A DNA stretch of 32,948 nt from assembly GCA_032250735.1 (NCBI GenBank), contig JAVVEP010000032.1, positions 1 through 32,948 of the forward strand, in the 5' to 3' direction. The translations under genes and the position numbers were made by a program. The notes under the pieces were generated by a model. That model had not been told where the DNA came from, searched no databases, and saw only the letters and a list, made by a program, of their open reading frames with translations. Position 1 is the first letter of the stretch. Every line of letters begins with the position of its first letter. Positions 34 through 14,098 of this stretch are shown in pieces. The DNA is from Gammaproteobacteria bacterium (lineage in GTDB: Bacteria > Pseudomonadota > Gammaproteobacteria > SZUA-152).

Positions 34-381
34 CTAATTCTGCTGAAGAGCCTTAAAATAAACGTCATCTAATGAGGTATCAGGATTAGGAAGGTTAATA
101 GTTGATCGCCCTGCTTCTTCTTTAATTATTGCTTGCTCAATAGCTGAATTAGTGTTGCTTTTAATAATGCAAAATTGACTCATAATTTTTTTAAAAATAA
201 TTTCGTTTCTGAGCCATAAATACTGTTCTGAATCTAACTCTTCAGTTAAATCCAAAAGATTAATATATTTCTTGTTTGGATCGCAGAACCCATTTTCTAG
301 CAAAATGTTTTTTAGCTCATTAAAAAGAGCCTGACAATCATTTGTGCCTGACCCTTTAAAAACTGCTTTGTCATTCATCAT
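34..381 (-). CDS. Small hypothetical protein, overlapping partner of the nuclease-helicase
   Basis: This is a 115-residue protein of unknown function. It is acidic to neutral, has no signal peptide and no obvious membrane segment, and contains a predicted helical stretch rich in Glu/Ile/Lys around residues 60-90. I recognise no domain. Its start codon (ATG ATG AAT at 381) lies inside the last codons of the upstream helicase gene, an 11-bp overlap, so the two genes are almost certainly one operon with coupled translation. That arrangement suggests a subunit, specificity or antitoxin-like partner of the helicase, which is inference. Base composition is AT-rich like the rest of the 1-5.7 kb block. 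Confidence 0.7.
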   Translation of the reverse strand: MMNDKAVFKGSGTNDCQALFNELKNILLENGFCDPNKKYINLLDLTEELDSEQYLWLRNEIIFKKIMSQFCIIKSNTNSAIEQAIIKEEAGRSTINLPNPDTSLDDVYFKALQQN

Positions 382-2572
382 CTAAGCCTTTCAAAGCTTT
401 TAAAAATAAAGATATAGACGGAAATTCTTTTTTTATTTCAACCAACTCTAAATTTGATAATTTTTTAATATCTCCACGGCTAGAAACCATTCCCATATAT
501 TGCCTCACCAAACTATCTTTCTTTCCTGTAGGGTTTTTTAAGCTTCTTGATTGCTCTTTATTTTCACCCCTATCGGAAGGAGGTATTTTTGAAACTTTAG
601 GTATTAATTCTGAAATTTCGTTTTCTGTAAACTCGAGCAAACTTTTGAACGAAAAATTTAACGATATTGCTCGTAAGCTAGGCTCAACACCATTATTTGA
701 AATATATTCTTCTACAAAGCCACCTACGCGAGATTTCATAGTTAGCATGTCAAAGTCAGTATCAAATGCTGCGGTTAAATATCCATAATACGAATCAAAA
801 TATGTAGAAAGCTGGTCGGAAGATACGTCATCAATAACTTCTTCAATATCACTTATTTCAGGTATTTGAAATTCTTGCTCTCTATAGCACCTAATTTTGT
901 CTATTAAGGCTTCACGAGTATTTAAACGATATTTCAATTCTTCTATAAGCTTTAACACTTTAGCCGCAGACTCGCTGTAATGGACTTCAAGTGAGCCATC
1001 ATGAACCACCTGCTTTTTATCATTTTTTTCCTCTGAATCCTCCAAGTGCTCTTTTTCTAATTTTTTATTTTTAACTGCTTTGGATAGTGCCTTTACTTCA
1101 TTTAATCGCTCTAAAGAACCAATAAAATCTAACACATGCACATATTCTTTGTTTGGTGTTTTTCGCAATCCTCGTCCAAGTTGTTGCAACCAAATTGTTC
1201 TTGAGCCTGTATAACGCATGAAGATTAAAAGGTTTGTTTCAGGTATATCAATACCTTCATTAAAAAGATCGCAAACTAGGATATATTTATAGTTACCCTC
1301 TCGAAAATTTCTTATATTTTCTCTTCGCTCTTGATCATTCATTTTAGAGTGTACACAAGTTGCAGTCCCCATTTCAAAAAACCCAAGCAAATGCTTTAAA
1401 TGGCGAATATTTCTACAAAACACTATGCCCTTAACATTTTCTATATTTTTCTTGCTAACAGTAGTTTCAATAATTTTAACCACTTCTTCATCTTTTTTAT
1501 GAAGAAATAACCTCTTATCAAGATCGCTAATAGATAAGCCGCTATCTAATTGATCAATCTTGCTCTGATCCAAATCATCCAATAAAACAATGTATTTTGG
1601 AAATGCCAGCTTTTTATGTTTCAGCCCCCAAACCAAGTCATATTTACCTATATGACCATCACTACCCCCAAAAAAATCAGTTACATTTTTTTCATCTGAC
1701 CGATAAGGCGTAGCTGTTAGCCCTATCAATAGCTTTGGAGAGAAGTTTTTTACTACTTCGGAATAAGTTCTTGCAGGTGTATGATGCGCCTCATCAACGA
1801 TAATATAATCAAAAGTTTCTTTTTTTAAATCATCTAATTGACTATATAACGTATCAAAACTTGCAAATACGAAATCAGTTTCTTCAGGAAAAGAGCCAGA
1901 AAAGCATGCTGAGAAGCTATATGAACCGACACCAAATACATTTTTAAAGGCTGTAACCGATTGAAGTAATATTTCAATCTGATGAGCAACAAACATTACT
2001 CTAGGACGTTTTGAGATATTTTTAGTTAACTCTTTGATTAATAACGCAACGGTATAAGTTTTACCTAAACCAGTTGCCATTTCTATTAAGATTTTATTTT
2101 TTCCAATATTGTATTGGTTTACTGCTTCTTGAATTACCTGTGTCTGATATTTTCTAGGTTTAATATCCCTACCTATCTCAGAGTGTTTTTGCACCCAAAG
2201 ACTTTTCAATCCATCCCGATCAATTAGCTCAACACCTAATCGTAAAGCTCTGACTTGGACCTCAGAAGTAAAATAAGAGTTCGTCACTAATATCATATGA
2301 TTAACGTTCGCTAGTTTAGCTCCAGCCACCAATTGGTTTAGTGCCTTTACATCTACGTTAGATTGAATATTTCTTTGTTTTACTTCAATAGCAAATTTAC
2401 GGCCAGCTTTGTAGGCGAATATATCAACACCTCCATCACCATGTTTATATTCCTTACCAATTTCTGTAATAACTGCATCAGTCCAACCTGATTTTTCAAG
2501 CAAGTCTTTAACGAAGAATTCAAAGTCCTTATCGCCTAATAAATCAACATCCTTAAAATTTTCAATAAGCAA
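371..2572 (-). CDS. Mrr-type restriction endonuclease fused to SF2 DEAH helicase
   Basis: A 733-residue protein. The N-terminal domain (about residues 10-125) is a PD-(D/E)xK nuclease of the Mrr_cat/REase type: DGGVD puts the metal-binding Asp at about 50, and IEVKQ supplies Glu63 and Lys65. It is followed by a ResIII/SSL2-like superfamily 2 helicase: Walker A ATGLGKT at 166-172, DEAH at 260-263, motif III LTATPYR near 285, and motif VI QQLGRGLRK near 463. The last 230 residues are helical, charged and unrecognised. Such nuclease-helicase fusions are typical of restriction and other anti-phage systems, and the substrate is probably foreign or modified DNA (inference). The start is TTG at 2572, preceded by GGAG at 8-nt spacing; no in-frame ATG lies nearby. 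It overlaps the 115-residue gene downstream. No methyltransferase is in view, so it is either a modification-dependent enzyme or not a classical type III system. Confidence 0.88.
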   Translation of the reverse strand: MLIENFKDVDLLGDKDFEFFVKDLLEKSGWTDAVITEIGKEYKHGDGGVDIFAYKAGRKFAIEVKQRNIQSNVDVKALNQLVAGAKLANVNHMILVTNSYFTSEVQVRALRLGVELIDRDGLKSLWVQKHSEIGRDIKPRKYQTQVIQEAVNQYNIGKNKILIEMATGLGKTYTVALLIKELTKNISKRPRVMFVAHQIEILLQSVTAFKNVFGVGSYSFSACFSGSFPEETDFVFASFDTLYSQLDDLKKETFDYIIVDEAHHTPARTYSEVVKNFSPKLLIGLTATPYRSDEKNVTDFFGGSDGHIGKYDLVWGLKHKKLAFPKYIVLLDDLDQSKIDQLDSGLSISDLDKRLFLHKKDEEVVKIIETTVSKKNIENVKGIVFCRNIRHLKHLLGFFEMGTATCVHSKMNDQERRENIRNFREGNYKYILVCDLFNEGIDIPETNLLIFMRYTGSRTIWLQQLGRGLRKTPNKEYVHVLDFIGSLERLNEVKALSKAVKNKKLEKEHLEDSEEKNDKKQVVHDGSLEVHYSESAAKVLKLIEELKYRLNTREALIDKIRCYREQEFQIPEISDIEEVIDDVSSDQLSTYFDSYYGYLTAAFDTDFDMLTMKSRVGGFVEEYISNNGVEPSLRAISLNFSFKSLLEFTENEISELIPKVSKIPPSDRGENKEQSRSLKNPTGKKDSLVRQYMGMVSSRGDIKKLSNLELVEIKKEFPSISLFLKALKGLDDE

Positions 2573-3107: not shown

Positions 3108-3130
3108 TTAAAGGGCTCAGACCCCTTTAG
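3108..3130. repeat. GGGGTC(A/T)GAGCCCTTTA palindrome
   Basis: TTAAAGGGCTCAGACCCCTTTAG is the reverse-oriented copy of the palindrome found at 2650, 5690 and 5721. It sits just after the stop codon of the 233-residue gene, between it and the long inverted repeat at 3037-3090. Confidence 0.65.
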
Positions 3131-3136
3131 CTGGAA

Positions 3137-3838
3137 TCATAGCTTAGTGACCTTTACATGCTTCTTATCTTTCTTAGACTCTCGCCAGATTTCTACACGG
3201 TACTGCTGCGGCAAAGGAATTGGTTTTGGCTGAGGTTTTTGCGGAATTTTCTTCTTGTCTTCGATTGGTTGTTCTCCACATTCAACCCATTCTTCACTGA
3301 TAAGGCTTAGCTGTTCGGGATACCTAGGCGCATCTTCAAACTGATCTTGCAATTCACAAATGAACTCTGGATTTTCATCGCCCTCTTTTCCGAACAGATT
3401 TCTTGCCTCTATCATCGCTTCATTAGTTGTAAGAACACCTCTCTGAACCTTATCGAACAGTGTATGCAACCGAGATAGAGCGCCTCCGCTTCTTCGTGAC
3501 TTTGCATTTACATTACTACCGCCGAACGGCGACCTGGCACTTTCAAATAACGCATTACTCACATAGGAGACTTGTCCACATATTGTTTCAAGCCCAGAAA
3601 TAAAGTCACCATATTGTCCAATTCCCAAATAGAGAGCACCAAGTGCAATGGCTATTTTTCCTCCACCTTTAATTGATCCCTCTTCAACATCTAAGGATAT
3701 CGAATAGTCTGGAAGAATAAGGGTCCTCTCTACGCTCCGTTCCCATTCATCGAATAAGTTTGTGGAATAGCGCTCAAACTCTTCTCGCGGCAAGCTCGGC
3801 ACTTTGATCAGAAAGTTGGTGGATCCTATGTCGATCAT
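3137..3838 (-). CDS. Unknown 233-residue protein with a central hydrophobic helix
   Basis: I do not recognise this protein. The N-terminal 55 residues are mixed alpha/beta. Residues 61-83 form a hydrophobic, Gly-rich segment (KIAIALGALYLGIGQYGDF) that could be a single membrane helix or a packed amphipathic helix. After that come a charged region, and a Pro/Lys-rich linker (KKIPQKPQPKPIPLPQQ, about residues 195-211) leading to a basic tail. The start is ATG at 3838 with a weak GGA at suitable spacing. It lies downstream of the reverse transcriptase but is separated from it by an attC-like site. By the integron model it is therefore a separate cassette and not necessarily a functional partner. 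A membrane-acting effector of a defence system is possible but unproven. Confidence 0.75.
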   Translation of the reverse strand: MIDIGSTNFLIKVPSLPREEFERYSTNLFDEWERSVERTLILPDYSISLDVEEGSIKGGGKIAIALGALYLGIGQYGDFISGLETICGQVSYVSNALFESARSPFGGSNVNAKSRRSGGALSRLHTLFDKVQRGVLTTNEAMIEARNLFGKEGDENPEFICELQDQFEDAPRYPEQLSLISEEWVECGEQPIEDKKKIPQKPQPKPIPLPQQYRVEIWRESKKDKKHVKVTKL

Positions 3839-3866
3839 CGCTTATTCCGTGGAACCAATAGTTTTC

Positions 3867-3919
3867 CCCTAACGCCGCGCTCTGCGGAAAATTTGTCCGA
3901 CAGCAGTCGTTTGTTAGCT
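3867..3919 (-). other. attC-like integron recombination site B
   Basis: Read on the minus strand it runs from AGCTAACAAACGACTGC to CAGAGCGCGGCGTTAGGG. The outer TAAC/GTTA arms match R'' and R' (AGCTAAC and GTTAGGG, each close to consensus). The inner GCTGTCGG and CCGCAGAGC arms pair with unpaired extra bases, as expected of attC. It starts 1 nt after the reverse transcriptase stop codon, exactly where a cassette's attC belongs. Confidence 0.75.
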
Positions 3920-3920
3920 T

Positions 3921-5495
3921 TCATGGGCTAAACGGATTGGCACGAGCCCAGCGTGTTACTGCTCGCTCCAACAAGTCTAATTGTGGTTCAACTGAACGAT
4001 ACCAATGTCTACGCGCATCGGCAGGCATACAACTTGCCGCTGCGAGTACAGCACGTCGTTGCCAGTGTGGATGTTCAAATAACGTTCGCCATTGCGACTG
4101 AAACCAATGCCGTTGTTCTGAGCGTCCCATAGCCAGTATCAGTTTTCGCTTGCAAGCTTGATCTCTCTCTTGATTATACAGACCAACAAATTTTCCTTCG
4201 TTATCCCATTCACGAGACTCAGTAAAAACATGCATTATCCACATTCGATGGTACGCCAGCTCACTAACCATAGAATCTTTCAATAAAGCCAATAACCTAC
4301 CGCCTAATTGAGAACGACTTTCTTTATTCAAAAATCGCAAACTCTTAAAATATTGAACAATATCAACAAATGCAGGAATAAGAGACTCTAGGTTATCGAA
4401 TATATCTTCGACAACGCTATCATCACCCAGCTGACCAAGACGCCGAAGGCAAAACTTCACAACTGGTATATCTGGTTCGTCTGATTGAGTTTCTTCTCGA
4501 AAAAGCTCCCCAAGATTCAAGGTGTCTATAAGCTCCTGTTGCTCTTCGTTCAGATCGTCATAATCAATTTCATCGTACCAGCTTTCCATTCCTAGCTCTT
4601 CGATTAACGTATGAAACTTTTCATGAAGAGAGTCCATTTCTCGGTCCAATGGGGTTGCGAGGAATTGATTTTTAAAATCGTTAACGGGTAGTACTGACGT
4701 TTTTTGCTGTTGAAGAGATAGGCCATGATTACGAAAAAGAGTTTCTGCTAAGAATGAAATATGTTGGTATGCCTCAACTTGGGTGCTGGCAAATATTCTG
4801 TAATCATCATTAAAACGAACAAAATCAATTCCGTTAGCAAGTAGTGCTTCATCAACGTCAGAAAGAGTGATTTCCGCAAGTATCCTTGATGGTGCACAAC
4901 CAACAGGTATTCCAAATGTTTCCGTGCCATTCCAGCCGGATAGCAGCCTCATTAGGGCAGAAATATGATTTGAATTTGTCGTTGCGGCACGTAACGCATT
5001 CTCAAGCCTATGATGATAAATTCGTGAGTAAAAATCAGAAATATCAGTTACTGCCACAAAAGAATCAACTGATGCAGTGGCTATTTTTCTTCGACACTTA
5101 TCTAAATACTGACGATAACCAATATTAGGATCAAAGAGTTGGCCATTTTGGTTCGTGTTGACCCTGTATGAAAAAACAATTTCATCTTGTATGGGAACTC
5201 GGCGGCTTTCAAGTTCAGCGGAAATCTCATAGATTAGCCCGCTATAAATAAGGAAGTCCAATGGGTCAAGTTGAGTGATAGTACGAAAACCATATTTTGC
5301 CTTAGGCGAAAGTAAGGCTCGTGCAGGGCGAGTGCGCCAGCTCAACACATCTTCACTCAGCAATTGTGTTTTAACAGCATCCCAATCATGGTTGATAGCT
5401 TGGTATTCAAATGGCGCAGGAAATACATCTGTATCACCAAGGTTTAGTGCATGGTTTATTGCCCAGTTGTAACTTTGTTCCCTAATGGTCAACAC
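3921..5495 (-). CDS. Unknown-Group reverse transcriptase (DRT/Abi-like) in an integron cassette
   Basis: A 524-residue protein. The RT fold spans about residues 55-275: a fingers motif (SPKAKYGFRTITQLDPLDF), motif A with the first catalytic Asp (VTDISDFYSRIY, Asp151), motif B (GIPVGCAPSRILAEI, 195-209) and motif C FNDDYRIF with the Asp pair at 230-231. Motif C is FNDD rather than the usual YxDD. The SRILAE motif B and the long helical C-terminal half (about 280-524) match the class of Unknown-Group/Abi reverse transcriptases used in phage defence (DRT systems, AbiA/AbiK/AbiP2). It lacks the maturase and HNH domains of group II introns and shows no retron msr/msd by eye. The start is GTG at 5495 with AAGGAA 8 nt upstream. 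The gene sits between two attC-like sites, so it forms a cassette of its own. The product would be cytosolic and make cDNA, or polymerise untemplated DNA. The exact UG class is unknown to me. Confidence 0.85.
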   Translation of the reverse strand: MLTIREQSYNWAINHALNLGDTDVFPAPFEYQAINHDWDAVKTQLLSEDVLSWRTRPARALLSPKAKYGFRTITQLDPLDFLIYSGLIYEISAELESRRVPIQDEIVFSYRVNTNQNGQLFDPNIGYRQYLDKCRRKIATASVDSFVAVTDISDFYSRIYHHRLENALRAATTNSNHISALMRLLSGWNGTETFGIPVGCAPSRILAEITLSDVDEALLANGIDFVRFNDDYRIFASTQVEAYQHISFLAETLFRNHGLSLQQQKTSVLPVNDFKNQFLATPLDREMDSLHEKFHTLIEELGMESWYDEIDYDDLNEEQQELIDTLNLGELFREETQSDEPDIPVVKFCLRRLGQLGDDSVVEDIFDNLESLIPAFVDIVQYFKSLRFLNKESRSQLGGRLLALLKDSMVSELAYHRMWIMHVFTESREWDNEGKFVGLYNQERDQACKRKLILAMGRSEQRHWFQSQWRTLFEHPHWQRRAVLAAASCMPADARRHWYRSVEPQLDLLERAVTRWARANPFSP

Positions 5496-5517
5496 GTTAA
5501 AGTTTCCTTGGAATGAT

Positions 5518-5573
5518 TGCTAATGCTTCAATAAGCCGACTCTTTAGCAGTCGGCTGCATTGACTTGTTAGAG
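5518..5573 (-). other. attC-like integron recombination site A
   Basis: On the minus strand: CTCTAACAAG (R'' 6/7), then AATGC, AGCCGAC, a 9-nt loop, GTCGGCT, GCATT and CATTAGC (R' with A for the first G). AGCCGAC/GTCGGCT pair perfectly (5534-5540 with 5550-5556). The layout is that of a classical attC. It lies 22 nt before the reverse transcriptase start and overlaps the 3' end of the truncated membrane ORF, which it terminates. Confidence 0.75.
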
Positions 5574-5719
5574 TTGTTTAGCTCGATTTGAGATGCAATT
5601 TTTTGTACCAATTCTTGCTCGCTTGGCCCGTTAAATATACTCATTAAGCCAAAAATTATTGTCAGCAAAAGGCCAATTACAGCTACAACTAAGGGGTCAG
5701 AGCCCTTTAACTCAACGGA
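5528..5719 (-). pseudogene. 5'-truncated small membrane protein of an upstream cassette
   Basis: An open frame on the minus strand reads through VVAVIGLLLTIIFGLM, a clear membrane helix, and then MSIFNGPSEQELVQKIASQI and a tail ending MQPTAKESAY that is encoded by attC site A. The region upstream of the helix is replaced by the GGGGTCAGAGCCCTTTA palindrome (5690-5710), and an in-frame TAG lies at 5722-5720. No start codon with a ribosome binding site precedes the helix; the first in-frame ATG is at 5644, after the helix, and would give only 38 residues. The simplest reading is a cassette gene whose 5' end was lost when the repeat inserted or recombined there. Confidence 0.55.
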
Positions 5720-5742
5720 CTAAAGGGGTCTGAGCCCTTTAG
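5690..5742. repeat. Two tandem GGGGTC(A/T)GAGCCCTTTA palindromes
   Basis: Two copies in direct orientation, TAAGGGGTCAGAGCCCTTTAA (5690-5710) and TAAAGGGGTCTGAGCCCTTTAG (5721-5742), lie at the junction between the AT-rich cassette block and the higher-GC DUF2167 gene. Each is an imperfect palindrome. Confidence 0.7.
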
Positions 5743-5770
5743 CCATTTAATCCAAATTTTGTTAAACGCT

Positions 5771-6667
5771 CTACTCAGCCTTTTTGCGGCTTAACATCTT
5801 TTTCAGGAAAACCCCAATAGCGATAACAAACAGAATAATAAATTTCTTACCCATAACGAGCAAAGCGATCAGTTTCGCAAGCAAGCCTGTCTTGGCGGCC
5901 ATCGTACCGCCCACCAGGGCCGCCAGGCCGTAGGCGGCAACATTGTCAGTGTCAGGGTCATAATCGGCGTAGCGATTCCCCTCGGTAAAGTTGGAAAAGG
6001 AAATCACGTCCTGCATGGATTCTTTTACCGTCGGCAATTGATCCGTGCCGGCGACGGCGTTAAGCACCAGCACACCCTCTCTGCCTAATACGCGAACATT
6101 ATAATTAAGCGTACTCTCCCCTTCTTCGCCGAACATTAGCTCCTTTGCCCAGTACATCTTTTTAGTGACTGGGTCATAACTGGGCATTTCTGCCCAACCA
6201 ACCAGGCTGATAGGCTCATAACCGGCCTCAACGCGCTCCTTACTGTCCTCTGCTGTTTCCGCCTGCATGTTTTCGAGAAGGTCCGCATAATCAATAGAGT
6301 CCGCATCTTCATCTGAAATGTGGCCATCATCTTGATAGGTAATCACCACGCCCCAACTGTTATCATCGGTTGGGCCAAGCTTGGCGGGAAATAACATGCC
6401 CAGCGTTCCTGTCCCATCGGGATTGCCCCAGGCCTGTTCCAAAACCCGTTGTGTATCATCAGAATCGATATAACGAAAACCCTCTGGCACCTGTAGCGTG
6501 GCCTTACCACCTGGCAGATTAATTACCCCTTGTTGATAGTTAAGTGACGCCTCAAATTCCGCTGCCGTAATACTCTCTTCCTGCGCATCAGTATCAGTAC
6601 CCGTATCCGCATAGGCACATGGCATCATCAGCATGATGAAAATCGACAGTCCTGATAGTAATTTCAT
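5771..6667 (-). CDS. DUF2167 family membrane protein
   Basis: A 298-residue protein with a signal peptide (MKLLSGLSIFIMLMMPCAYA, cleavage after about residue 20). A soluble extracytoplasmic domain follows: INLPGGKATLQVPEGFRYID, then a conserved aromatic-rich core including WGVVITYQDDGHISDEDAD and YEPISLVGWAEMPSYD, which marks the DUF2167 family. It ends in one or two C-terminal membrane helices (about 235-290) and a basic KKMLSRKKAE tail, so the bulk faces the periplasm. The role of DUF2167 is unknown. The ribosome binding site AAGGAA precedes the ATG at 6667. It is the first normal-GC gene after the cassette block and is probably transcribed alone. Confidence 0.88.
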   Translation of the reverse strand: MKLLSGLSIFIMLMMPCAYADTGTDTDAQEESITAAEFEASLNYQQGVINLPGGKATLQVPEGFRYIDSDDTQRVLEQAWGNPDGTGTLGMLFPAKLGPTDDNSWGVVITYQDDGHISDEDADSIDYADLLENMQAETAEDSKERVEAGYEPISLVGWAEMPSYDPVTKKMYWAKELMFGEEGESTLNYNVRVLGREGVLVLNAVAGTDQLPTVKESMQDVISFSNFTEGNRYADYDPDTDNVAAYGLAALVGGTMAAKTGLLAKLIALLVMGKKFIILFVIAIGVFLKKMLSRKKAE

Positions 6668-11259: not shown

Positions 11260-11545
11260 ATTTCCTGGTGTTTCCTGGCCCCCAACAAAGCCCTCCAATC
11301 GACGTTCGTCCCTCACGCGGTAGCGCCCCAGCCGCCCAACCCATCATTTTTGAGCCATTGATTTACAGCTCCACACAGCCTCGCAACGGAGGGAACGTGG
11401 CCGTCTATCTCCTGTTGCGCCGCGTCTAAAAAAACTCCTATTAACCCTAAAGTTAATACGCCATCTGCCGTTAGACAGGGGCACAAACCTGCGCGCCCTT
11501 GCGGCAGGCCGTCGGACAAACATAAAAACCAACAAGGAATTGATC

Positions 11546-12430
11546 ATGCATACCTCGAAAAAAGCCCTCTTGATCGGCGGACTCATGGCGAGTCTCATGG
11601 CCGCGAGCCTGCCCGCACAAGCCACCGTCACCATCGGCGTCCTCGCCCCCCGCGGCGAACTCATCGCCATGAAACAGTGGAGCGCCTTCGGAAAATACCT
11701 GAGCAGCCAAATCGGCGACACGGTGGAGATCAAGCCCTACGGCCCGCGTGACCTCGTCACCGCCGCCGCGGACAACCAAGTGGATTTCACCCTCGCCAAT
11801 CCCACCCAGGCCATTATTTTGCAGGATGTCCACCAGGCCACCCCGCTGGCGACGCTGAACAAGAAATCCGGCAGCCAGTTCGCGGGCGTCATCGTGGCGA
11901 AAAAGGGCAGCGGCATCACCAAGGCCGAGGATTTGAAGGGCAAGAAGGTCATGTCGCTGAAATTCCGTGCCGCGGCCGGCGCTTATACGTTTCAGACGTA
12001 TCACTTGATGCAAAAGGGCATCGACCCCCACAAAGACTTCGCCTCTTTCAAGGAGGGCAAGAAGCAGGATGACCTGGTATTGGCCGTCAAGGCCGGCGTC
12101 ATTGATGCCGCCTTCGTGCGTTCGGGCCTGCTGGAGAACATGGCCAAGGAAGGCAAGATCAAGCTGGAGGATTTCGAAATCGTGGACCAGCGCACAGGCG
12201 ACGGCTTTCCCCACCTCCACTCCACCGACCTCTACCCCGAGTGGTATCTCTTCTCGCTGCAGAACACCGATGCCGGTGTGGCCGGAAAGATCAAAACCGC
12301 CAGCATCAACCTGAAGGCAGGGGATGACGCCGCCAAGGACGCCAATATCGAGGGTTTCGTGGAGCCCGTGTCGCTGGACGGCATGAAGGCGGCGTTGAAG
12401 GCATTGAAGATCAAGCCGTACGATAAATAA
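11546..12430 (+). CDS. PhnD-like periplasmic substrate-binding protein
   Basis: A 294-residue protein with a signal peptide ending SLPAQA (about residue 26). A PhnD/phosphonate-binding type fold follows: VTIGVLAPRGELIAMKQWSAFGKYLS, then RDLVTAAADNQVDFTLANPTQAIIL and AEDLKGKKVMSLKF. The start is ATG at 11546 with AAGGA 7 nt upstream; a TTG six bases earlier is less likely. It is followed after 27 nt by a chemoreceptor gene and no transporter genes are nearby. I infer that it hands its ligand, possibly an oxyanion such as phosphite or phosphonate, to the receptor rather than to an ABC permease. The ligand cannot be read from the sequence. Confidence 0.85.
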   Translation: MHTSKKALLIGGLMASLMAASLPAQATVTIGVLAPRGELIAMKQWSAFGKYLSSQIGDTVEIKPYGPRDLVTAAADNQVDFTLANPTQAIILQDVHQATPLATLNKKSGSQFAGVIVAKKGSGITKAEDLKGKKVMSLKFRAAAGAYTFQTYHLMQKGIDPHKDFASFKEGKKQDDLVLAVKAGVIDAAFVRSGLLENMAKEGKIKLEDFEIVDQRTGDGFPHLHSTDLYPEWYLFSLQNTDAGVAGKIKTASINLKAGDDAAKDANIEGFVEPVSLDGMKAALKALKIKPYDK

Positions 12431-12457
12431 CGTCGCCACCCAGGGAGTTACAACGCA

Positions 12458-14098
12458 ATGATTGCCACCATCATATCCACCTGCAACCTCGGAAAAATGG
12501 GCATGGCCGCGAAATTCAGCGCGGCCACCGCCATCACCCTGGTCATCCTCATGGGCATCGGCGGCACCGTGGTGCTCAACCTGCAAGACCGAACCCTGGG
12601 GACGTTGCTGGACACCTCCAGCGGCATCGTCAAGGACATCGCCGCGGACCAGGTCGCGGCCAACCAGGATTCGGAACAGCTCAAGGCCGCGCAGTTGGGC
12701 AAGATGCTGGCGAAGATCGCCCCCGCGGCCATCGCCTCCTTCGATCTCAGCGCCTTGCTGGAATACGCCACCGTCGCCACGGAGGACCCGGACGTTTCTT
12801 ACGTGGCCTTCATCAGCACCGACGGCAACGTCCTGGCAGAGTCCGGCGACAAGGCCACCGTCGCGGCGGATGCTGTGCAGGAAAAGACCATCGTTTACGA
12901 GGAAAATCCACTGGGCAAAGTGGTGGTGGGTTTCAACCACAACCGCACCGAGGCCCAGTTTGCCAAGCTGGAAACGCGCAACGCAAATAACCTCAACAGC
13001 ATGCACGACACCAAGGGTAAGTCCTATCGCTCGGCGTTGATCAGTCTGATTCTGTTGAGCGTGTTCATCACCGTCATGGCGGTGATGGTGATTTACCTGG
13101 TCACCCGCAGTATCGTGAAACCCCTGTGCGTGGCGGTGGACGCCACCAAGCGCATCGCGGGCGGCGACCTTACCGTGCAGGTGGAAAGCCACTCCGAAGA
13201 CGAAACCGGTCGCCTGCTGGAGGCCATGCAGACCATGCAGGAGGGCCTGCATGGCATCGTCAATCAGATCACCGGCGCCACGGTGCAGCTCGGCGCCACG
13301 GCGGAACAGATGTCGAGCGTCACACAGCAAACCAGCCAGGGTGCCCAGCAACAGGAGTCCGAGACCGATCAACTGGCCACCGCCATCAACGAAATGGCGG
13401 CCACGGTGCAGGAAGTTTCGCGTAACGCCATGAAGGCGGCTGTCGCGGCGCAAAACGCCGACGAGGCGGCCATCAACGGCAAGAACGTGGTGCAGGAAAC
13501 CACCGACGTCATCAACGGCCTGGTGACAGAAATCGTCTCCACGGCGGAAGTCGTTCAGGCCTTGCAATCGGAGGCCAACGACATCGGCACGGTGCTGGAC
13601 GTCATCCGCGGCATCGCGGAACAGACCAACCTGCTGGCGCTCAACGCCGCCATCGAGGCCGCCCGCGCCGGCGAACAAGGCCGCGGCTTCGCCGTGGTGG
13701 CCGACGAAGTGCGCACGCTGGCTTCGCGTACCCAGCAATCCACCCAGGAAATCCAGCAGATGATCGAGCGCCTGCAAAAAGGTGCCAGCAAGGCCGTGAC
13801 CGCCATGGAAAACAGCCAGGAACGCACCCAGACCAGCGCCGAGAAGGCATCCAGCGCCATGGATTCCCTCAATGACATCGTCGGCGCCGTCGCCACCATC
13901 ACCGAAATGAACACCCAGATCGCCAGCGCCGCGGAGGAACAAAGCACGGTAGCCGAAGAGATCAACCGCAGCGTCACCAAGATACGGACGGTGGCCGGTC
14001 AAACCGCCGACAACGCCCAGCTCACCGCCGAGGCCGGCGGCGAATTGGCCGACATCGCCGGTCAGTTGCAACGACTCGTCGGCCGGTTCCGCGTGTAA
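12458..14098 (+). CDS. Methyl-accepting chemotaxis protein
   Basis: A 546-residue receptor. Membrane helices lie at about 18-41 and 193-216, with a 150-residue periplasmic sensor domain between them, a HAMP domain (about 217-268) and a long coiled-coil signalling domain. The highly conserved hairpin tip [20 protein letters not shown] and the following [17 protein letters not shown] lie at 383-421. The C-terminus ends RLVGRFRV with no CheR-tethering pentapeptide. It lies 27 nt after the PhnD-like binding protein and is probably co-transcribed. The periplasmic domain is small and helical, consistent with docking a binding protein or sensing directly. Confidence 0.93.

Follow-up and report, generated by a model that had tools for sequence, protein, structure and literature searches.

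A Drt8-Family Reverse Transcriptase with an FNDD Active Site in a Predicted Single-Gene Integron Cassette

How a reverse transcriptase (RT) could work when it appears to travel alone is the question raised by a gene on a gammaproteobacterial contig. The first-pass annotation had recognised it as an Unknown-Group RT, possibly an antiphage one, that stands alone in its cassette and, if active, would function either without a protein partner or with a non-coding RNA (ncRNA) from its short flanks. The window, meaning here the whole stretch of 32,948 nucleotides that was analysed, is the entire contig C32 of its genome. The features on which the discussion depends are the following.

371 to 2572, minus strand: restriction-like gene of 733 aa with Mrr_cat nuclease and ResIII/Helicase_C domains (PADLOC, Pfam), further along on the same strand
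3137 to 3838, minus strand: following gene of the array (233 aa), unmatched in PADLOC, Pfam and NCBIfam
3866 to 3918, minus strand: attC-like site of the RT cassette (CTAACAA ... GCGTTAGGGG), end boxes paired
3921 to 5495, minus strand: Drt8-family RT, made up of an RT domain (roughly residues 1-281), a linker loop with Tyr307 (roughly 302-316) and a helical-repeat domain (317-519)
4575 to 4577, minus strand: candidate priming residue Tyr307 (codon position derived from ORF and sequence)
4803 to 4814, minus strand: FNDD of motif C, F228-N229-D230-D231 (codon positions derived from ORF and sequence)
5496 to 5523, minus strand: short leader with a ribosome-binding-like AAGGAAA (sequence inspection)
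5519 to 5573, minus strand: the preceding cassette's attC-like site (TAACAA ... GCATTAGC), whose cut point is the 5' edge of the RT cassette

The reverse transcriptase and its family

The open reading frame is intact, encoding 524 amino acids from a GTG start with zero internal stops. The RVT_1 domain is matched at residues 133-269 (48.6 bits, cut-off 29.6), and the motifs read TDISDFY in A (D151), GIPVG in B and RFNDDYRIF in C (F228-N229-D230-D231). The catalytic residues D151, D230 and D231 are kept in 83/83 aligned RTs, a set that includes the window RT and otherwise consists of relatives among the matches listed. The initial description of a protein with all RT motifs, FNDD as motif C and no intron maturase or endonuclease domain thus holds, as Pfam and NCBIfam scans of the protein found neither of these two domains. 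Between the window RT and its nearest relative dN is 0.058, and no dN/dS ratio can be given because dS is saturated; a second pair, L034 and L035, gives a dN of 0.040 and a dS of 0.261. The substitutions suggest that the gene is under purifying selection.

Profile searches support the placement among Unknown-Group/DRT enzymes that had been proposed. The PADLOC model Drt8 (PDLC03783), a family that we take to be UG7, matches window residues 4-520 with 546.9 bits, covering profile positions 2-492 of 493; the runner-up, RT_UG21, reaches 177.6 bits, and the best scores to Drt4 and Drt6 are 98.4 and 78.8 bits. Drt8 is also the best model for 10/10 further relatives scanned from several branches (458.7 to 585.6 bits) and for L105 (305.1 bits), and no NCBIfam model rises above its own cut-off for the window RT. 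Group II intron and retron models score far below their cut-offs. A group II intron RT was rejected at 57.3 bits for group_II_RT_mat (NCBIfam cut-off 300) with no maturase domain, and a retron at 27.5 bits for the best model, St85 (cut-off 235), with no RNA family match; no Rfam match to intron RNA or retron RNA was found in the window at gathering score. Judged by its profile match, the gene is a member of the Drt8 RT family, but with no partner gene beside it (see below) it falls outside the two-gene definition of DRT8. The same genome carries a second Unknown-Group RT on contig C29 (L002:42-1571, minus strand; PADLOC RT_UG36, 532.4 bits).

An AlphaFold2 model of the window RT, built from 60 sequences (pLDDT 92.3, pTM 0.90), has an RT domain fused to a helical-repeat (alphaRep) domain, as in class 1 UG/Abi enzymes. 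The long helical second half seen in the first reading corresponds to residues 317-519, which are mostly helices in this model, and the alpha-repeat C-terminal domain sought by structure prediction is confidently modelled and superposes on AbiK, DRT4 and DRT6. Whole-length matches in VIA-align 2 are DRT6 (Z 21.0, rmsd 4.2, 444 residues, 7-517), AbiK (Z 20.3, rmsd 4.0, 437 residues), DRT4 (Z 19.1, rmsd 4.8, 451 residues), AbiA (Z 18.9, rmsd 4.8, 388 residues) and Abi-P2 (Z 18.5, rmsd 5.2, 413 residues), and the top ranks in Foldseek are DRT6, UG15 and DRT4. Over the RT part, matches include DRT9 (9vma, Z 20.7, 251 residues, 4-283; another DRT9 entry, 9nlv, reaches 333) and DRT2 (Z 19.3, 250 residues, 6-284). 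Two results count against the reading preferred below: a group II intron RT has the highest Z overall (25.3), aligned over residues 1-281, and the matches of some group II and DGR entries extend to residues 343-357 of the window RT.

The G2L4 RT is likewise among the structural matches (Z 22.4, residues 1-279), and this likeness would suit a housekeeping or repair role of the G2L4 type, or a selfish passenger, in place of a role in defence. Such an alternative is nevertheless unlikely, given that a DRT model is the best family match and that the structures aligning over the whole length are Abi/DRT enzymes.

The unusual motif C marks a group of RTs. Scanning the genome collection with an alignment of four sequences yielded 160 confirmed stretches; the best 80 of these 160 (79 loci) were used, and together with the window and three sequences from a genome sample they make up the alignment of 83 RTs. 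Among the matches listed, Asn229 is common to 14/14 members of the window's group (window included) and occurs in one of the 69 other Drt8-family RTs (L105), the other 68 having Val. In 13 of the 14 members it is preceded by Phe; L033 has Tyr there. The group comprises, among the matches listed, Pseudomonadota, Cyanobacteriota, Thermodesulfobacteriota, Acidobacteriota, Candidatus Poribacteria and a KSB1 bacterium.

In a quick tree, from which six partial or broken rows were left out (L038, L039, L075, L077, L098, L104), the 12 FNDD rows used form one branch (SH-aLRT 86). When the motif C columns are removed, the same rows and L052, a YVDD sequence on a long branch, make one 100/100 branch, and a 100/99 branch unites the window with L028, L029, L030, L031 and L036. 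On this tree L052 has no fixed place and the FNDD label needs two changes, so that a single origin of FNDD is no more than likely. Other group-specific residues include G187, E192, Q466, W469, M490 and A494, present in 11-12/12 rows inside the group and 0-1/48 outside it in alignment A3. This alignment was made from 60 of the 83 RTs; the rows left out, 23 in all, are partial, broken or outlying (L026, L038, L039, L067, L075, L077, L098, L104, L105, L106) or have closer kin in the set (13 rows), and a further alignment, A4, was made without L038 and L039.

The integron cassette

The coding strand reads TCTAACAAG...GCATTAGC before the RT gene (5573-5519) and GCTAACAAA...GCGTTAGGG after it (3918-3866). 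The layout and cut point applied to these flanks are those of attC sites in general; the 5' box in the window is ATTAGC, not GTTAGC. Folded as a single strand, the 5' site (5519-5573) has a z of -3.8 with 0/200 shuffles as good, though its best fold leaves the end boxes unpaired; the 3' site (3866-3918) has its end boxes paired but rises only weakly above shuffles (z -1.5, 16/200 as good). Eight flank sites were folded in this way, of which four have z <= -2.7 and four are not clearly above shuffles. In agreement with the initial view that the RT is alone in its cassette, these two attC-like sites frame it and nothing else.

Integron integrases cut one base inside the 5' box of attC. The relative L028, whose RT protein is 91% identical to that of the window, shares with it a stretch with corresponding ends: compared with the whole window, the whole L028 locus (21.6 kb) has one same-strand match, from 5523 to 3911 (78.1% over 1614 columns). 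This homology begins one base inside the 5' box, the first base of which is A in the window and G in L028, and ends within the TAACAA box of the 3' site.

The arrangement recurs in relatives. Among the matches listed, [GA]TTAGC lies 17-29 nt 5' of the start in 7/14 FNDD-group RTs (window included), and attC-like stretches flank the gene on both sides in six of the 14 loci (the window and five relatives), L031 having the 5' box alone. Under the same flank rule, which is strict and was set post hoc after the flanks had been viewed, the 69 other RTs among the matches listed give one 5' box, four 3' attC-like stretches and no case of both; the corresponding counts are 21, 37 and 2 in 899 background ORFs, and 3, 25 and 0 in 218 other ORFs of at least 100 aa in the FNDD loci. 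The last figure, 0/218, means either that the rule misses other cassettes or that few are present. A home-made attC hairpin rule gave too much noise, calling 36 sites in 287,780 strand-bases for the integron candidates versus 37 in 567,326 for controls, and an alignment of nine other attC sites (A2) was too poor for a covariance model. On the evidence of these flanks, the RT gene is best described as a single-gene integron cassette whose mobility is predicted.

In the window's own genome, an integron integrase match of 333.3 bits (model cut-off 435) lies in a 324-aa frame on contig C4, and about 1 kb past it there is an attC-like site. Since the window is the whole of contig C32, its array is cut at base 1, and a link to the contig C4 integrase is only conjectural; the array may be an attC cluster without an integrase of its own. 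Among eight FNDD genomes tested, six have an integrase match at E <=1e-50 (those of L028, L029, L030, L031, L036 and L037), and the genomes of L033 and L034 have none at this threshold, nor have any of 14 control genomes (0/14). The six positive genomes are those in which the RT has at least the 5' box, as against 0/2 without it. None of these matches reaches the model's own cut-off; an intact frame of 328-459 aa spans the match in five of the six, whereas the L031 genome has a partial match, with a stop and no long frame across it. RT and integrase share a contig in the Syntrophaceae genome of L037, where the RT comes third among the plus-strand genes on the side facing away from the integrase. 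The corresponding stretch, L119 (contig C38) 9205-14676, holds an HNH-like gene, a 366-aa gene and then the FNDD RT, with names given by eye.

Several further observations concern the window itself. A 19-bp palindromic repeat (AAAGGGSTCWGASCCCYTT) lies at 2651-2669, 3110-3128, 5690-5708 and 5722-5740, one copy with a mismatch. It gives eight matches over two strands versus 0.05 expected, is confined to the cassette end within the window, and has seven perfect sites genome-wide, three of them in the window. The Mrr-nuclease/helicase gene, at the same contig end as the RT cassette, provides a defence setting and would be a large load if it were itself a cassette. An 866-aa frame at 11471-14071 (minus strand), opposite an MCP chemoreceptor-like gene (12458-14098, plus strand), has no Pfam match at E 1e-10 and is probably a shadow ORF.

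Integron cassettes carry many functions, which agrees with the housekeeping or passenger alternative raised above. The distribution of the gene points the other way: no relative was found at E 1e-60 in 23 other genomes of the order (0/23, several of them incomplete), a sporadic spread that suits an accessory gene, and class-wide 2/369 genomes match at this threshold, namely that of the window and a second one with 272.9 bits. A phage origin was rejected, with no relative in viral contigs and just three weak phage matches (24% identity), and so was a plasmid origin, with 35 plasmid records all below 60% identity, four of them covering at least 80% of the query. According to PMC12409362, antiphage gene cassettes in integrons are the subject of 2025 work by Darracq and by Kieffer. 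Also against that alternative, this article describes integrons as reservoirs of antiphage genes on which size limits act. The literature covered, short of the primary papers by Darracq and Kieffer, contains no recognised report of an RT or DRT as an integron antiphage cassette.

Protein partners and template RNA

Another branch of the Drt8 family does have a partner. Ten RTs (L065, L076, L080, L083, L084, L090, L091, L092, L094, L097) are followed by a gene for 196-261 aa that overlaps the RT end. The alignment of these partner proteins retains G150-D151, E160-x-K162 and Q175, and a model (pLDDT 89.1) finds its best matches in Argonaute-associated Cas4-family and Dna2 nucleases, with query-normalised TM-scores of 0.38-0.52; a Pfam scan of the partner protein gave no useful name. 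The conserved residues and model matches, the latter at modest TM-scores, indicate that the partner is probably a Cas4/RecB-like PD-(D/E)XK protein. This fits a statement in the accessible part of PMC12596737 that DRT8 has a PD-(D/E)XK domain.

The existence of a nuclease partner in relatives that match the same Drt8 model counts against a self-sufficient window RT. It opens the alternative that the window gene is the RT half of an RT plus Cas4-like system, which would take its nuclease from elsewhere, for example from the Mrr-helicase gene at 371-2572, whose nuclease domain lies two genes away. The shared PADLOC model (L065 557.9, L090 545.1 bits) agrees with this, but the distribution of the partner makes it quite unlikely. 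No PD-(D/E)XK gene adjoins the window RT. The partner family was not found in the window's genome (0/1) and is missing from 7/8 FNDD-group genomes, whereas both positive-control genomes yielded it (2/2); for the window's genome, a canonical DRT8 with its partner elsewhere was thereby rejected. In the one exception, a Nostoc, the partner adjoins a second RT: in this genome, that of L034, an RT-like frame of 481 aa (L116:56-1501) is followed by the partner at 1498-2202 with a 4-nt overlap. Moreover, the partnered RTs lie in the quick tree on a branch apart from FNDD, of whose 12 rows they make up 10, and within the four nearest ORFs to either side, only the two Nostoc loci of the FNDD group have neighbours in common. 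A tight downstream ORF occurs, among the matches listed, in 1/14 FNDD loci (L033), 10/10 partnered RTs and 7/59 others, and a tight upstream ORF in 0, 3 and 7, respectively. In L033 (Acidobacteriota), a 332-aa gene at +37 to +1035 after the RT has, by eye, a deoxyribosyltransferase-type domain and membrane segments.

A second alternative is that of a DRT2/DRT9-like enzyme copying an ncRNA encoded beside or inside the gene. Such RNAs are used by DRT2, DRT3 and DRT9 according to the accessible text of PMC12596737 and PMC13213688, and the RT part of the window protein aligns with DRT9 and DRT2. Neither DRT2 nor the best DRT9 entry aligns with the C-terminal half, and the cassette is tight: about 29 nt separate the cut point from the RT start, the 5' box is 17-29 nt off in seven loci, and attC begins 2-5 nt past the stop, leaving no room for an ncRNA or a partner gene within the cassette. 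Within the FNDD group, blastn found no shared sequence in 500 nt upstream or downstream except between the two Nostoc, which carries less weight than the lack of room because blastn can miss diverged ncRNAs. The window gave no Rfam match at gathering score, and no sigma-70-like promoter was found in 5440-5800. With neither room, nor a conserved flank, nor an Rfam match, the structured ncRNA adjoining the gene in systems of the DRT2/DRT9 type has no visible counterpart, and an ncRNA-copying enzyme is quite unlikely, though an ncRNA encoded elsewhere or within the ORF would be compatible with these results. Of the two options left by the first-pass annotation, the partner-free one stands, with no partner gene in the cassette and the Cas4-like partner family not found in the genome, and an ncRNA in the flanks is disfavoured by the lack of room and by flanks that are not conserved among relatives, the two Nostoc apart.

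Priming, proposed mechanism and comparison with known systems

If the RT is self-sufficient, it would need a primer of its own, for which Tyr307 is a candidate. This residue lies in the stretch 302-316, between a long helix (282-301) and the helical domain, in a linker where model confidence is near its lowest (block means 65, 76 and 69 for residues 281-310). It is one of 16 invariant columns in A3 (60/60), the neighbouring columns varying and gapping freely, and it is present in 78/83 RTs overall, among the matches listed; the first count is flattering and the second fair, because A3 omits partial, broken and outlying rows. L067, L075, L105 and L106 are without it, so another primer is possible there, and L098 is too short. 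Priming residues differ among families. As far as the available texts describe them, DRT9 primes from C-terminal tyrosines, DRT3b from the C-terminal Y666 and DRT1 from S402; hence, the position of Tyr307 alone proves nothing.

The second distinctive residue is Asn229. According to the available part of PMC13174585, the YVDD residues Y276 and V277 of DRT3b touch the ribose of the -1 nucleotide, and N229 of the window RT occupies the position of V277. The FNDD group thus alters the residue adjoining the growing 3' end, and by analogy Asn229 may change nucleotide handling. The motif B arginine, R204, may be the counterpart of DRT3b R241. A mapping of DRT3b E22/R241 via one Drt3b homologue was dropped, as the N-terminal alignment was too poor for E22.

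On balance, and with moderate confidence, the window gene is best read as a single-gene, integron-mobile RT of the Drt8 branch that acts as a protein-primed, untemplated DNA polymerase of the class 1 Abi/DRT type in antiphage defence. The computed base of this reading is the RT fold with its three catalytic Asp, the whole-length match to AbiK, DRT4 and DRT6, the tight cassette and Tyr307. In the proposed mechanism, the RT would oligomerise via its helical-repeat domain, and the first nucleotide would be attached to the enzyme's own Tyr307, in the linker between the RT and helical domains. Single-stranded DNA, presumably untemplated, would then be extended from this residue and, upon phage infection, would turn toxic or sequester factors. 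The mode of action would be that of the class 1 Abi/DRT enzymes AbiK, AbiA and DRT4, and it is by analogy with them that the window RT probably has an antiphage role.

A bolder version of this proposal is speculative and rather doubtful. In it, FNDD would denote a new kind of portable, partner- and RNA-free cassette for DNA writing that integrons carry from phylum to phylum, in which N229, replacing Val beside the two catalytic Asp, together with the C-terminal-domain changes Q466, W469, M490 and A494 would set a restricted, protein-dictated product, comparable to the poly(CA) that DRT3b is reported to make. Two papers from 2026 (PMC13213688, PMC13314766), in the parts available, credit DRT8 with no established mechanism.

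The locus matters for several reasons. An integron cassette is a natural minimal-gene experiment, and a moving unit that consists of the RT alone argues that RNA and partner are dispensable in the FNDD branch. With a single candidate for the priming tyrosine and a single change in the active site that defines the group, the mechanism is directly testable, and an RT enzyme is added to the kinds of genes seen in integron arrays. Beyond what the first-pass annotation had proposed, FNDD emerges as the mark of a group, the integron-cassette-like gene occurs in several phyla, and a candidate priming tyrosine can be named.

Compared with known systems, the window RT resembles the antiphage cassettes of integrons in that attC sites lie on both sides of the gene and the setting is a chromosomal integron, but these cassettes include no named RT in the account in PMC12409362, where the words 'reverse transcriptase' and 'DRT' are absent from the main text. 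AbiA, AbiK and Abi-P2 have an RT and a helical domain, as does the window RT, yet identity in the structural alignments is just 11-17%, and AbiA, unlike the window RT, carries a HEPN domain. Passages available from PMC11077055 state that AbiA primes from Tyr298/Tyr303, in a disordered loop joining the RT and helical domains, and that AbiK primes from an N-terminal tyrosine. The AbiA tyrosines are thus in the RT-helical linker where Tyr307 of the window RT also sits, whereas the priming site of AbiK differs. DRT4/UG15 and DRT6 are, like the window RT, single-gene enzymes with an alpha-repeat domain (their single-gene status is taken from the available text of PMC13213688) and match it over its whole length in structure, but they differ in the PADLOC models that score best. 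The two-gene branch of Drt8 shares with the window RT the whole-length match to PDLC03783 and, in most members, the linker tyrosine; it has a nuclease partner and YVDD, whereas the window RT has no partner, a single-gene cassette, FNDD and a separate branch. What emerges here is a partnerless, integron-borne, FNDD-type branch of Drt8, whose members are most likely protein-primed, template-independent DNA polymerases with a role in defence.
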